Below are positions 21,101 to 35,900 of a stretch of 64,000 bases of DNA, piece after piece. Position 1 is the first letter of the stretch. Every line of letters starts with the position of its first letter. Below the pieces are notes generated by a model that saw nothing but the letters and a program-made list of their open reading frames with translations, did not search any database and was not told the origin of the DNA. Both the position numbers and the translations under genes were made by a program. The stretch comes from Cucumis sativus (lineage: Eukaryota; Streptophyta; Magnoliopsida; Cucurbitales; Cucurbitaceae), in assembly GCF_000004075.3 (NCBI RefSeq), contig NC_026658.2, positions 10,962,075 to 11,026,074 of the forward strand, read 5' to 3'.

Positions 21101-24100
21101 CATAGAAAGCATAAGGGCACAAGCAACTTCAAGTAAATATCTATTTTTTCGCTCAACGACGTCATTTTGCTAAAGAGTATCTTGACATGTAGCTTGATGG
21201 AAAAATACCCTTATCTTGCAAAAAATAAGTTAATTGTTTGTTAAAATATTCAGTACTATTATCAGAGTGAAGAATGCGGATTTTAGTTTGAGACTAGGTC
21301 TCAATCATATTGTAAAACCAAACAAAAACCTCTTCTACCTTCATTTTTTTTGTTAAAAGATAAAATCAAGTTAAACAAGTGTGATCAAGGTAACAAACCA
21401 ACCCAACTCAACGCTTACCACTATAAGCCAACACTCTAGACGGACCCCACACATTAGTGTGAATGAAGTAAAAAGGCGAGGAACCCTTACAAGGTTTGGG
21501 TCGATGATGTTTAGCAGAAATGCAACTTTCACTTTAAAAGATTGAACAATCAAAATCTTTAAATAAATTTGGAAACAAAGAGGGCCCTCCCCAACAGAAG
21601 CTAAAGAATAATCACCTTCCAATTGTTGAAAATCATAGAAAGGCTGTAATTACAGAAGTCTTTGGTGTAATTCGTACTCCACTAAGAAGTTGTGTGTTGC
21701 AACACAGTCCAAAAAGAATCAAAAGAGTTATAGCTATCTTAAAAAATTCTACTATTCCTTTATTTCCAAATGCACCACAAAAGAAACTGGGTAGCACATC
21801 TCCATAAGATGTTTCCTTTCGAACTATAACCTCTAATGTTAAGCCCTTCCAGCATCCAACTATCAACCTTACTAGGAAGACAAAGCTCCAAATCAAAATT
21901 CTAAACAAATTGTTCCAAGCTTTCCTAGTAAAGAGAGTGCAAAAATAAGTGGTTTAGGGTCTCCTCATCTTTGAAACAAGAACAGAACATTGAGGGGCTG
22001 AGCATATGTGTTGGATTTTTTTTTTTTTTTTTAAATTTTCTCACGAGTGTTAGACTTCTATAGGCGAGCGACCAAAAGAAGAATTTCACCTTTTTCGAGA
22101 TTTTAGTTTTCCACATGTGGTGAATCGGAGGAGCAGCATGGAGGGAGATCTCTTGGTAAAATTACGGAAAGTAGACTTTGTAGTAAAGCTGCCATTAACG
22201 TTAGAAGTCCATTTAAGACTATCACCACCATCTGAGGGGGCCAAGGATGGAAATTTTTTAGAATTGAGGCCACGTTGTCAAGCTCATTATCGAGCACATT
22301 TCTTCTAAGGCCCAAGTTCCACGAATGAGTAACATTACACCAACATTCAGACACAAAAGCATCTTTGTTCAGTGCCAAGGAGAACAAGGTAGAGGAATTT
22401 TTATGCAAGCGGTTCCACGCCACACCAACTATCTTTCCAGAATCTGATTTTTGTTCCCTCTCCCAACAAAAAAGCTGTGAATTTATAAGTCTCCTTATGC
22501 TTCAAAATAACGGCCCACAATCTATAAGACCTTCCTCTGTTCGGAGCTTTAGTAGACCACCCTCTCCTCTAAGCGGTAAATGGCCACAATTAAGCGCCTC
22601 CATTAAGTGGTTTCTTCCTTACTAAACCTTCAAAGCCATTTATTGACAAGAGCAGTGTTCTTTTGCCTAAATGATCCAATCTCAAGGCCACCATAAGAGA
22701 TTAGGCGAGAAGAACAATCCCATTTGACAATGTGGAAAACCGAATTAATAAACCCTATCCAAACAAAATTTCAAATAATCTTTTCCAGTCTATTGATAAC
22801 ACCAACCGGGGCTTGTGCAAGGGAAAATAAGTAACAAGGAAGGCTGTTGAGAACCAATTGCATAAGAGTTAGCCTACCCCCTTTGGAGAGGGACATAATC
22901 CTCCACCTATCAATTCAGGAGGAGTATTCTAACCACATGATAACAACATAAAGAAGAGAATCACAAAATAAAATAGTAAACAAAAAAAAGCTTTTTTCAC
23001 GACCTTCCAAGTTGGAGGAATGACTTTTTCAATTTTAAGCGCACGACTGTCCCATCCGTCCCCAACTGCAACCAAAAGTTTTCGTGTAAACCTGAAAACC
23101 ATGAAGAAGATCGCTTGCCTTATTTCATTCTTAAAGTGAATAATATTGATAAAATAGATGAAAGTGATACAAAATTTTCATCTTATCATCCTCTGCCAAA
23201 GGTAGGGGAGTATAAACCAAGTTTACCGTAAGATCAGTTTGCTGTAGACAATCTTTGGTGGGGCTGCGAGGATTTCTGCCTCTGAGGTAAGTCATGCAGA
23301 AAACAGAATTTTAATACTAACCGCAATAAAAGAGGACTTGGAGGCTAGACAATACTGAATTAGCAATTATAGTAAAAACATGGGAAAAATTGAAATACCC
23401 TTAGTCCCTAATTATGGATTCGGTTGGATTTTTTTAATAAAAAATTAATTTATTGATGAATGAAATAATCCAAAGAAGTAGACGAAATGAAAAGAATAAA
23501 AAAGAAGCCCAAAAGAGAGGGAAACATTACAACTGAAAAAGAAGTAGACAAAATGAAAAGAAGTACAACCAAATGTGTTGGATTAAAACAAAAAAAAAAA
23601 ACAGAGAGCCCCTAATGTAAGAAGACTAGAAGTTAATTGGGTAATTAGTTACTATTCTAGGTTAATTCCCTCTCTACCCACCACTTGTAATAAACTCTAT
23701 AAATAAGAGCCTTCCCCTCTTGTCTGAAACACATTATTCATTCTAATAAAAAGATTTACAGTCTTGGTTCTTGGATAATTACTCCTTAAGGTTACTTAGA
23801 CTACATCATTTTAGTTTCAGAGCGGCCACCTGGGCCAACGTTGACTACAAACGATGGAAGATCGAGAAACTTTTGGTGACGCCAATCACTAGAAGGAGCT
23901 TCATGAGTTGTGCTTATTGTCGAACACACATCTAATTTGGGGGAACCTTTAAAATTTCAAGAAAGAAAGAAGAAATTGGGGAGGAAAGGACTATTACCAA
24001 TCAAAGAAGATGTCCAAGAAAAACACAGCAGTTTGTATAGGCAAGAAAATCAATTTTACTTCCAAAAACAGTGCTGGAATTTTGACTAAAGTGATTCCGA

Positions 24101-27100
24101 AGAAGAATTTCAACTTGCTATTTTTACCTATGTTCAATCTATTAAACCACCAATTCACCCAAAATATTAAGCTAGTGGTTGAAGGCAAATTTAATTACAA
24201 TTACTAACACTCCCCTTACTTGTGGGCTCGAAATATCTGAAAGGCCTAACAAGTGGAAATTAATTTTAATTGGGGAGGAAACAACAATGTAGAGGCTTAA
24301 ACATAGGACCTCCTGGACCACCTGCTCTGATACGATATTAAACCACCAATTCACCCAAAAGCTTAAGCTAGTGGTTGAAGGAAAATTTAATTATATATCA
24401 CTAAACAATCTTCTCAAAGAACCTATCATTATCCACAAAGGAAATTTGATTCTAGTGATTCTAGTGACTCCGATGATATTTCTAAGAAAGCTTGGGATGG
24501 AATAAGAAGACGGAAATATCGACAAACGGCCCAATGATTCGATCAAACCCATTTTTTAAGAAATCAACGTAGAACTTGGGAGTTCAATGAACTAAAGAAT
24601 CGTCAAGAATGGATTTTTACAACCCTAGAAGAACGCTCAAGACTCAAAATTACTCTTTTGGTTATGAAACACGATCAAGAAAGGTTGATTCAAGAAAGTC
24701 AATGGATGAGTCTTATACCCACTATGAGATTTAAACATATTCAATTCCCTAACAAAATGACTACTTTTTTCTTCTTTTTTTTATCCAAAGAACGATTAGA
24801 GAGAAAAAAAAACAAAAACAAAATGACTACTTTGATCCCTTAGGCCGTAGCACTGGAGGAAATAAAGAAAATAACAAAAGAAATCCAACATATTGGGGAA
24901 AATGACTCACATATCGATCAACTATCAATTCATTTGCAAGATTTCAAGAACAAATTGGTTTCACATACGGAAGAAAAAACAAAGGAATCATAGTTGGAAA
25001 ATTTTCAAATAGAAAATCTGGACGATAAAATTGAAGGAAAACAAGAATTTGAAAATGTTGATCTGGAAATAGTCTCAAGTGAAGAAAAATCCAACTAAGA
25101 AGATTGGAAGAAAGGACGAACACCAAGCAAAAATCAAATAAGAAAATGACACATTGATTGTAGTCGAAATGGATCATCGAATCGTTGAAGAACTTGAAGC
25201 GCATGATAGAGAAGACATGATTCTTGAACGATTCTCTTTGGAATGTGGTGTTCTAGACTTTGAGTGATTGGTCCATTGAATGTGGTTTTGAATGAGCATG
25301 AAGGAAAAGATCTTTTTTGGCTTTACGGTCAATGGAGAGGTTCCTCTTTTGGTGGAAATATTGGATTTTTTGTCTCAACTTAATCTAATTTATCATAATA
25401 TTTTTGTATAAAACATCGGAGGTTGGTTTGGTCATATTCCATTGAACAAGTTTATTTCATTAATTATTTGCTTCATAATTTTTTCCTTCTTAAAACTCGA
25501 GAACAGGTTTTCTTTTTGGAAGGGTAGAATGATGTAAGAAGAATAGGGGTTAGTTGGGAAATTAGATAATATTCTAGGTTAATTCCATTTTTACCCATCA
25601 CTTGTAATAAAACTCTTAAATAGGAGTATTATCCTCTTGTATGAAGCACATTATCCATTCTAATAAAAAGATTAACAATCTTGGTGCTTAGATAATTACT
25701 CTTTGAGGTTGCTTAGGCTACATCAATCAGCCCTAGTACAAAGGCAGCAAGGAGACAAAATGATGGAGCACGTCTAAAAGGAAAAATGCCAAGTTTGATG
25801 AAGATCGCTACTGATGAATGATGGCTCAAAAAACAGGTCTCTAAACCCCGTTTCAAAAAATCAAGGTGGGAGTCAATTTGCACAATCAAGTTGATGATGG
25901 CCCTTCTCAAATCAAATCTTTAGCTCTTTTCTCACATGATATAGAGCTTTCTTATGGAACCTAATACAGTACACTGTGCTTAGCCCCTCGATGTGTTGCC
26001 TTTGCTTCAAAGGAGAGGAAACCTTGGACCACATATTTTTGCACTGTCTTTTTACTAGGAAAGCTTGGAACACTTTGTTTAGAATTTTTTATTTGGAGCT
26101 TTGTCTTCCTAGTAAGGTTGATAGCTGGTTGATTGAAGGGCTCAACATTAGAGGTTATAGCCTGAAAAGAAACATGTTATGGAGATGTGCTACTCGGTCC
26201 CTTTTGTGGTACATTTGGAAAGAAAGGAATAGAAGAATTTTTTAGAATGACTATAATTCTTTTGATTCTTTTTGGACGGTGTTGCAACACACAACTTCTT
26301 GGTGGAGTATGAATTACACCAAACATTTTTGTAATTATAGTCTTTCAATGATATTCAGCAATTGGAACGCCATCATTTTTTAGTTTCTTCTGGGGAGGGC
26401 CCTTTTGTCCCTTGCCCTTAGGTTGTTCTATTTTGTTATATGAATACATATGTTTCTCATCAAAAAAAAAAAAAAAAAAAAATGGAACCTAATACAGTAT
26501 TGATATAACGTGGATATCTCATCTTGACAAAGAATTGGTTCACACTCAGAAGAAGAAACTTCTTTGTCAAATAAAGTTAACCAAACTAAAGATCGTAATT
26601 TGTCAGCAACACTTGCAGTATTTCGAGATCTACTCCAACTTCTATGGGCAACTCAACGTTCATACCGATGCTTGATGTTAATCTATTAGTTCTTTGTTAA
26701 GCTTTTAAGTAAATCAATCATTTGTTATGGTTTGTGGAAACTTAACATTTTTCTGCTTTTCTTTTTCCTTTTTACTCCTTTGAGAGATTTTGTATCTTTT
26801 GAGCATTAGTCTCTCTTTTACACTTTTCATCTTTTCAATGAATAGTTGTCTCTTCTAGCCAATCATGTTTTTAATATAAAGTAATGGGTGAATTAAGAAG
26901 AAGAAATAATGTGTGTGTGTGTGTGTTATATGAAGGTCAAATAATTGTTTACCAATTGTAGAATCCCTTTCATCCTTACGTAAGAGCTCATCTGCCTCTT
27001 CAATTGTTTCAACGGTAACCGGCGGACCTCCAAAGCTCATATGATTATATTCCATCAATGATGTCTTGTCAAATTCATATCCTGATTCTGAATTGTACAA

Positions 27101-33200: not shown

Positions 33201-35900
33201 ATCCTGTTTTGTTTTGTTTGCCACATTCATTGTATTTTGGGTCTGGTATCTATTAGATGATACATAATTAAATTTACCTTTAGCCATTAGCTTAAGCTTT
33301 TGGGTTAATTTGTGATTTAAGATGATATCAGAGCAGGTGGTTCAGGAAGGTCTTGTGTACAAGCCCTTGCAATGATATTTTTTTCTCAGTTAAAATTGAT
33401 TTTCACTTGTTGGACCTTCATATTTTGAGCTTAGATGATATATAATTAAATTTATCTTCACTCATTAGCTTAAACTTTTGGGTCAATTGGTAATTTAGGA
33501 GTATCTTTTCATTCCTTTAATGAAAAGTTCTGTATTTTATCAAAAAGTATTCTAAGTATACTTTTTAAGTGATTCTTTTTGTTTCTTGACTTGTCCTTTG
33601 TTCTTTTTATATCTTATGGTAATTTAATTTAACCTGCATTGTGTTGTATACAGAGCGCAAAGAGCAAATTGATAAGGTAGAAGAGGAGGAGAGATTATTG
33701 AAAGAAAAAGAAGCAAAGAAACATTTGGAGAGAGAAAATGATGAGACTAGAAAAATTGAGTCAACAGAAACAACTGATGTTGGGGAAAGCAAAACTCACG
33801 AGGAAGACAATTGGGAGAAAAATGAAGCTACAAAACATTATGACAAGGAGTATAAACAAGGAGAAGGCAACGATGATGATAAAATTGGTAATTGGGATGA
33901 CTCTGCTTCAGATAAGGTTAGAAAAGTTTGTTTATTTTGAAGCTTAGACATCAGAAACCTTCAACATTTTTAGCATATGATGCTGAACGCCTACTACTTG
34001 TCTCTTATTCTGCATGTTTTGTTGGTTATTGTAGCTCATTTCTTTCCTGATACGTAATCCCCTCAGGCCACATCCTTTATGTTTTCTTATTCTTTCTTTA
34101 CACTAAGATATTGTTTGGTTCCAAATTCAGGTGGTTAGTTTGTCTAGGTTGATCAGGAAAGAAAGACTGTAACACTGGATTTTTCCATAGAGTGGCTAAT
34201 GGGAGAAGGAATAAGGATCTCATTGATCTTTTGATCCTTGATAATGGTATTATATTAGTACAAGAGACAATAAGGAGATTGAGGAGGAGATTGAGGAGGA
34301 GATTATGAAGTCCTATAATCTCCTCGGCCCTGAAGTGAGTGTTAAGCCTTTTTTGGAAGGTATTGATTGGAACCCCATTCTGCCTAGGGAGGATGAGGAG
34401 CTGATGAAGCCTTTTGCTCTGGAAGAGATTAAAACGACAGTTTTCAGTTGTGAAGGCGTCAAATCTCATGAGGCGGATGGGTTCTCTATGGCTTTCTTCC
34501 TAAAGAACTGGGATCTGGTTGAAAGGGAATTTGGAAGGGAGTCTTTAAGGAGTTCTTTGAAAGGGGTATTTTGAGTAGTTCGATGGTGGAAACTTCTGTG
34601 TCTGATCCCCACAAAGGATAATGCCAACAGAGTTAGGGATACCAAATCCTAAGTACCATTATCATTGTTAGGCATTCACCTCTTCAATCATCACACTGCG
34701 CCAGCCAGAATGAGACAATGTTTCATGAACGGTCTTAGGTATCGAGATAGAATCCAGACGAACCCGAAGGACAGAAGTCAAAGAAAGTTGGTCACGTTCC
34801 TCCACGTGCCAGCGTGTGTGATGGTGGGCAGCAACTTCTGGCAGCGCGTGTGACTTAGACACAGACTATTTTCTGGCTAAATTTTAGATTCTTGTAGATT
34901 GGCAAGTGGGCTTTTTTCCGAGTTGGGCGATGATGGAAAAAAAAACCACGCTGTATGACAGCGGATTCTGGTGATGGTGGCGAAAATGGTAGGGGATTTC
35001 AGCGACGGCAATGGGTCTGGACAACAAAGGAAATACTCCAGACCAAACTATTTTTTTAAAAAAGCTCTAAACCTAAAACTCTAAGGGTTCACAAATCTTC
35101 AAATTACTCTCAAAGCCCTCATTGCCCTAGGAACCAATACCCAGAGCTCTAATACCATGTGAAAGTTAGAGCAAAATATAAATATGAGAGAACTCCTTAC
35201 TTCATTCTATAGAATAGAATTCAATATATATATGTAGAAACCCTAAATAAAAACTAGTAAATTATAATAAAGGACAAAAGACTAATAAGCTCCTATAATT
35301 ACGTATATACTATCACACATCATATCATGAGAAGGTTTGTTTCTTTATTGTTTTCTGGGGTGTGTGCTATTATGTTAGATTGTTGGGGTGAGTGGAAGAA
35401 TCATGTGGTTAAAGGGTTGGATAGGGATCTTAGTGATGTTTGGTCCCTTGTAGTTTTCACGTTTTCTGCTATGTATTGATTTCAAAGACCTTATGTAACC
35501 ATTTTTAGGTTCTATTTTTATTTTGTGTGGTTGAAGTCCCTTCTTTTAGCCTATTGCATTTAATCAATAATTTGTGAGATAAGATATAGTATGGTCTACT
35601 ATCTATATCTAAAATATGCAAATTATTGGCTGAATGCTATAGGCTATGGATTTTGAAATATTTGGGCACAATGTTCTCTTCCTTCATGTTCTCATATTGG
35701 CACCTCTTTAGCAGGCTAGGATGGAAGAAGTTGATTCAGAACTTGAAGCTCACCTTTCTAATAAACCTGAAACAGAAGCATCATTGCCGAAAGAGGTAGA
35801 AGAGGTGAAATCTTTATGTTTGAATGTTTAATCTCTCGTTCTTGCGTCCATCAGTGATCAGTCAATGGCGGTGTTCTATACTGAATCATAGATTCTTTTT

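Follow-up and report, generated by a model that had tools for sequence, protein, structure and literature searches.

The 266-bp unit at 24140–24405 of the window (the whole 64,000-nucleotide stretch of Cucumis sativus DNA analysed here) is almost certainly a miniature LTR retrotransposon (TRIM). It is probably a non-autonomous element of the Ty1-copia type that draws its machinery from Ty1-copia families with LTRs of a type referred to as LTR_A. An element of this kind is already known and ordinary, near the small end of the range; what is new is the evidence on its helper, provided by insertions in which a copia-type LTR is joined to the TRIM interior.

Structure of the window copy

On the minus strand, the copy reads LTR, primer-binding site (PBS), interior, purine tract and LTR in the 5' to 3' direction. 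The features of the window are as follows.

24140..24405, minus strand: complete TRIM, 266 bp; bounded by the family ends and the target duplication, matching many genomic copies at 91% identity, with empty paralogous sites
24336..24405, minus strand: 5' LTR, 70 bp; outer end one base short
24324..24335, minus strand: PBS, TCGTATCAGAGC; 11/12 of the family motif TGGTATCAGAGC
24210..24221, minus strand: polypurine tract, AAGTAAGGGGAG, just before the 3' LTR
24140..24209, minus strand: 3' LTR, 70 bp; differs from the 5' LTR at 7 of 70 aligned columns
24135..24139, no strand: target-site duplication CAATC, left; 5-bp deficit at paralogous empty sites
24406..24410, no strand: target-site duplication CAATC, right; 5-bp deficit at paralogous empty sites
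33251..33500, plus strand: second, diverged TRIM copy, 250 bp; 74% identical over the matched part

The direct repeat spans 24140–24197 and 24336–24393 (58 nt, 95% identical), and the entire LTR–LTR match has 91% identity across 69 columns, which bears out the terminal repeats proposed in the preliminary description. The same holds for the primer site adjoining the first repeat (24335–24324), which we take to match initiator tRNA-Met, and for the purine tract ahead of the second repeat (24221–24210). The proposed size of 266 bp also stands, and the LTRs, put at about 69 bp, are 70 bp here with a family mode of 71 bp. The hexamer CAATCT lies at both ends of the copy, so that a single copy cannot fix the boundary, and we took it from other copies. 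The family ends TGTTGG...TTTAATA place the element at 24140–24405 with the duplication CAATC, and both the ends (24141–24406) and the duplication (AATCT) given earlier were therefore off by 1 bp. As its 5' LTR lacks one terminal base, this copy scores as a miss in our automatic duplication count.

A TATATAAT box locates near the start of the 71-bp LTR. The element has no sizeable reading frame, the longest stop-to-stop frame wholly within it being 72 aa (among frames of at least 45 aa). At a substitution rate of 1.3e-8 per site per year, which is a rice-type rate and not cucumber's, the LTR divergence of 7/70 would mean an age of roughly 4 million years. The second copy of the window, also reported before, is flanked by the exact duplication GTATC (33246–33250 and 33501–33505).

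Insertion into a dispersed repeat

The left and right 400 bp flanking the insertion were searched separately against the genome, and the best 40 of 173 and the best 40 of 95 candidates, respectively, were scored. All 43 non-self left-flank rows and 41 of the 43 non-self right-flank rows were used. Thirty-five left-flank rows extend far enough to reach the site, 21 of them with a neighbouring right-flank row in the same orientation; the other 14 have no right-flank row among the matches listed. None of the 21 paired paralogues carries the insertion. These empty sites are shorter than the two flanks together by 5 bp in 13 of the 21 cases and by 6 bp in five, the remaining deficits being 7, 9 and 42 bp in one paralogue each. 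Empty paralogous sites with a 5-bp deficit indicate that the TRIM entered a dispersed repeat already in place, with duplication of 5 bp, in agreement with the nesting proposed earlier. The window copy is an old insertion within this unrelated repeat.

This repeat occupies 23400–25300 of the window and has at least 43 other left-flank matches, at 68–86% identity. No Pfam match was found among the three frames tried in it. Separately, a LINE-like remnant with a zf-RVT domain (E 8e-7) lies at 25940–26242.

The TRIM family in the cucumber genome

A first look returned 1040 candidates for the TRIM, the best 40 of which gave 50 matches. Across the whole assembly, a 33-base LTR piece has 586 matches (up to 3 mismatches), the LTR–PBS joint 234 (up to 1 mismatch), and the purine tract–LTR joint 346 (up to 2 mismatches), each with a reversed-pattern control of 0. 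The cucumber genome has hundreds of related TRIM copies.

In the fetched, flanked copies we found 104 TRIM units, leaving out two loci that repeat others, and scored 96 of them for duplications; eight were dropped, with one end not recognised. An exact 5-bp duplication is present at the ends TGTTGG...TTTAATA in 59 of the 96, a share that is not a genome-wide rate, the sample leaning towards copies close to the query. When the flanks were re-paired 1000 times, the mean was 0.9 and the maximum 7. Other end offsets give fewer duplications, at best 18 when both ends are moved by one base in the same sense. At the family ends, counts for 4 or 6 bases are 0, because the script then compares outer against inner letters. 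The 59 duplications comprise 54 different 5-mers, and one pair among them, L082/L083, is a segmental duplicate. Dispersed copies with the same ends and differing 5-bp duplications are what the preliminary description had anticipated.

Flank sequence shared beyond the ends, which would have spoken against insertion, is restricted to known duplicates and is not general: among the loci compared, long shared flanks occur in L047/L048, L082/L083 and one group of 18 loci out of a set of 30. The 18 loci of this group (L103, L106–L116, L120, L122–L126) share at least 1.5 kb of flank, and many lie on small contigs. The group is an old TRIM copy amplified within a larger repeat.

The LTR is 71 bp in 153 of 170 cases. 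Among the 64 two-LTR units, the commonest element length is 270 bp (25 units), and in a longer form of 318–328 bp (12 units) a block is repeated ahead of the purine tract. The PBS motif is exact in 42/64 and has one mismatch in 17/64, the purine tract is within two edits of the family tract in 57/64, and the two LTRs are identical in 24/64, again in a sample leaning towards the query's close relatives. Two tandem arrays each carry one exact outer duplication, with six LTRs in 769 bp (L049) and three LTRs in 524 bp (L032).

Some copies are rearranged. Three loci (L041, L053, L088) have half LTRs placed head to head at the palindrome AAGCTTAAGCTT within the TRIM LTR, perhaps through self-priming or fold-back during reverse transcription. 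In L044, a full copy stands immediately beside a second TRIM match, which is inverted and diverged (73%).

One might read the window unit as no LTR element at all, being a chance repeat, a tandem duplication or a SINE-like unit. The unit is indeed very small and without coding capacity, and by eye the region around 24300 has a vague likeness to a tRNA B box. Such a reading is nonetheless extremely improbable given the terminal repeats, the PBS, the purine tract and the 5-bp duplications. It is also opposed by the single-LTR copies, of which 8/22 have exact duplications. Five of these 22 follow a purine tract (L053, L056, L075, L078, L088) and two precede a PBS (L009, L095), so that these seven are visibly parts of longer elements rather than solo LTRs.

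Searches for RNA features point the same way, in that a tRNA search of the window found none and neither a 5S rRNA- nor a tRNA-derived match is present among the four weak Rfam hits in 24000–24550 (E up to 5; nothing above the gathering score). The LTR folds mildly better than its shuffles (z -1.63), 14 of 200 shuffles being at least as good. RNA structure in the LTR, with the stem AACCAC/GTGGTT, was considered and rejected: the commonest variant (GTGATT, 15 LTRs) breaks a pair, with no compensation. Retrozymes carry a hammerhead ribozyme in the LTR; the Rfam search of 24000–24550 gave no hammerhead hit, and this sets the window TRIM apart from them. Cassandra, Helenus and Ajax are described as TRIMs with a 5S rRNA or tRNA-like promoter (PMC10886601), and the LTR sequence of this derivation that characterises them was not found in the window TRIM.

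In size, the element falls within the published TRIM range as reported in the two accounts compared here, 233–292 bp with LTRs of 52–85 bp (PMC4717578, PMC3281118). It was first described as near the minimal size. The small end of the range is correct, but it is no record, since CcaRetroS9, the smallest TRIM given in PMC4717578, has 233 bp and 52-bp LTRs. Plant TRIMs are characterised in that survey (Gao et al., 2016) as under 1 kb, without retrotransposase, with 5-bp duplications and with tandemly arrayed forms; the cucumber family agrees with them, as described, in size class, 5-bp duplications, tandem arrays and the lack of retrotransposon proteins. The cucumber entry of the same survey counts four subfamilies, 30 complete elements and 2,816 copies in all, and our family may be one of the four. 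SMART (FRetro129; Gao et al., 2012, PMC3281118) is an element of 292 bp with 85-bp LTRs and a 5-bp duplication. According to that account, it is reported from grasses only and ends in TGT...ACA; by this description, the cucumber TRIM with its ends TGTTGG...TTTAATA stands apart from it.

Hybrid insertions between copia-type LTRs and the TRIM

A 29-base pattern consisting of a copia-type LTR end, the PBS and the TRIM interior has 93 matches in the genome (up to 2 mismatches; control 0). Nine are single places and 84 have the PBS variants CCGAGC or CTGAGC. The nine single places were all examined, together with L149 and L150 from the 84; these two share flanks at 95% over 682 nt. The 84 were counted as one event, on the assumption that the 82 unfetched matches belong with L149/L150. 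There are thus 10 distinct junctions, in which the 3' end of a copia-type LTR meets the TRIM interior at the common PBS. The full TRIM 3' LTR is reached in eight of the 10, the exceptions being L144 and the L149/L150 class. This class (L149, L150 and the 82 pattern matches) lies mostly at C1 13 Mb, C4 11–13 Mb, C5 16–17 Mb and on small contigs, and seems to have been amplified together with its flanks.

The clearest hybrid is L075. It consists of TTTAC, a 254-nt LTR_A running TGTTGGAATTC...TTTCAATA, the PBS, the TRIM interior, the purine tract, the TRIM LTR and again TTTAC. Both ends could be read for duplications in five of the 10 junctions, with the end positions set by a fuzzy script. The outer 5-mers are exact in L075 (TTTAC/TTTAC) and L147 (AGAAG/AGAAG), match at 4/5 in L145 (AATTG/AATTA), and are exact in L148 (GTTTC/GTTTC) provided that the first T of its LTR has been lost; L056 has no outer duplication. 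Unrelated flanks match by chance in 0.3% of cases for an exact 5-mer and in 3.3% for 4/5 or better, so two exact of five would arise about 8 times in 100,000 (binomial by hand). Among the other junctions, L139 retains an LTR tail only, which abuts broken copia pol. L143 and L146 have a TRIM 3' LTR that is followed by a PBS and a different interior, and the right end is therefore not scoreable.

The hybrids might instead reflect exchange at the PBS between a copia and a TRIM that were both already integrated, through DNA recombination or gene conversion, in which case the TRIM is real and the hybrids are uninformative on its helper. The common stretch of about 15–17 bp at the joint is in line with such an origin, as is the missing duplication of L056; the Triticeae account (PMC1950507) attributes three-LTR complexes that lack matching duplications to genomic recombination. 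We consider it unlikely, however, since recombination of two independent insertions should not give the same outer 5-mers, which are exact in L075 and L147 and nearly so in L145 and L148. It should also produce reciprocal and mirror joints about as commonly. The reciprocal joint (TRIM LTR, PBS and LTR_A interior) has two matches, one being L146 and the other known by pattern. A pattern search for the mirror junction (TRIM purine tract and LTR_A start; up to 3 mismatches) gave no true case, both hits at 3 mismatches being ordinary TRIM starts. These counts of 2 and 0 compare with 10 distinct junctions of the main type.

Nesting of a copia element inside a TRIM copy is the true arrangement at one locus, L029. 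There, an LTR_A copia lies in a TRIM LTR with both duplications exact (copia ATAAT, TRIM ATACA), and we rejected it as a hybrid. As an account of the PBS hybrids, nesting is very improbable: they are without a TRIM 5' LTR, and the joint runs exactly from LTR end to PBS, which insertion does not give.

The TRIM also has PBS joints with another copia-like LTR (L078) and with another small element (L013, L041). These indicate that LTR_A is not the sole partner and that the helper is not unique, although an outer duplication was established at none of them. The small LTR-like element, with the tail ...CAAATTTAACA, is seen in L013, L041 and L139, followed in L041 by TGGTATCAGAGCCCA.

The LTR_A family as candidate helper

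The best 40 of 764 LTR_A candidates were scored, and every one of them matches the query LTR at 98–100% identity; the family to which LTR_A belongs is young. Among these 40 are eight neighbouring same-strand pairs, seven spaced 5251–5314 bp and one 4598 bp. The 5' LTR is followed by TGGTATCAGAGC, and the 3' LTR is preceded by CCCAACTTGAGGGGGAG. A 1.5-kb piece from between the LTRs of one pair is open throughout, and its single frame (499 aa) has the domains SH3_retrovirus (1.4e-24) and RVT_2 (8.6e-56), by which the LTR_A family is assigned to Ty1-copia. The TRIM and the LTR_A copias have in common the terminal motifs TGTTGG and TT(T/C)AATA, the PBS and the GAGGGGGAG tract, and apart from their ends the two LTRs have little in common. 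In L056, L143, L147 and the L149/L150 class, the LTR is a shorter relative of LTR_A that matches it in part. On the common features and the hybrids, the helper of the TRIM is probably to be sought among LTR_A-type copias, a reading drawn from one assembly.

The larger relative with matching LTR ends that the preliminary description foresaw is therefore realised in part. A Ty1-copia family with matching terminal motifs, PBS and purine tract forms hybrids with the TRIM, but no larger element flanked on both sides by the whole TRIM LTR was established. Six LTR–PBS joints without a listed purine-tract joint nearby each proved to contain TRIM sequence, L131 being cut off by other sequence. Of six purine-tract joints without a listed PBS joint, five are TRIMs and the sixth, L133, is decayed. 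L133 has coding-like sequence with in-frame stops before a TRIM LTR, which by eye resembles copia RNase H. It adjoins L139, the two together spanning C1:30431700–30435760, and L139 holds copia pol fragments between two TRIM LTRs, with Pol_BBD (1.1e-7) and RVT_2 (3e-14), and rve at 2e-4, below its cut-off. This locus is decayed and rearranged and is no established helper.

Discussion

From the common motifs and the hybrids, we infer that the machinery of the TRIM probably comes from Ty1-copia families with LTR_A-type LTRs. In the proposed cycle, TRIM RNA would be transcribed from the 71-bp LTR and primed at the PBS adjoining the 5' LTR; cDNA synthesis would take place in the particles of a Ty1-copia element that codes for proteins, and integration would duplicate 5 bp of the target. 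In the retroviral pathway, plus-strand strong-stop DNA carries the LTR and a PBS copy and must anneal to the minus-strand PBS. Within the same particle, copia plus-strand strong-stop DNA could anneal to the PBS of the TRIM minus-strand cDNA. The product would have the donor (copia) LTR at its 5' end and the recipient (TRIM) LTR at its 3' end, joined at the PBS, and the copia integrase would accept both ends. We infer that the hybrids fit such a transfer of copia strong-stop DNA onto TRIM cDNA in a shared particle. Strong-stop transfer from another RNA predicts few mirror joints, and no true one was found.

Several known systems can be compared with these hybrids. The Triticeae complexes (Sabot and Schulman, 2007, PMC1950507) are chimeric insertions with one 5-bp duplication, attributed to co-packaging and template switching, and the authors propose that unlike plant elements are packaged together. 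As described there, the complexes have two similar outer LTRs and a switch between R regions, whereas the cucumber hybrids have unlike outer LTRs, a joint at the PBS, and a coding family and a TRIM as partners. The same plus-strand transfer has been put forward to explain the asymmetric LTRs of some HIV-1 proviruses (PMC9278108); those, as presented, involve one virus with one LTR deleted, in contrast to the two different element families of cucumber. Wheat Cereba and Quinta (PMC11302176) are autonomous and non-autonomous partners with identical PBS and LTR termini. They are Gypsy elements, Quinta encodes GAG, the pairing is by shared motifs, and template switching is mentioned in the passages considered here only between Quinta lineages. 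The candidate Ty1-copia helper of SMART, FRetro64, is described as having a common PBS and purine tract and common internal sequence at 96% (PMC3281118); the candidate helper here shares terminal motifs, PBS and tract instead. In the plant survey (PMC4717578), larger relatives are given for 11/289 TRIM subfamilies on the basis of sequence similarity, and no retrotransposase-encoding relative for 278/289, while the partner here is deduced from hybrid insertions. A literature search for hybrids between a TRIM and its helper gave no paper that we recognised as on this subject among the matches listed.

The hybrids nominate LTR_A-type Ty1-copia helpers through physical linkage in single insertions, not through similarity. 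If PBS hybrids with unlike LTRs and one common duplication arise as a by-product when elements are co-packaged, helpers can be identified through them without sequence similarity, and the joint-pattern search is applicable to any assembled genome. More tentatively, the TRIM and its copia helpers may swap LTRs at the common PBS during second-strand transfer. The hybrids would then record the copying element, and swapping would continually make non-autonomous elements with LTRs unlike the helper's. On this reading, structures with a TRIM LTR, the PBS and a copia-type interior (L146; C4:8911504 by pattern; L143, for a related family) would be the reverse exchange. If true, such LTR swapping would explain why similarity fails to find most TRIM helpers.
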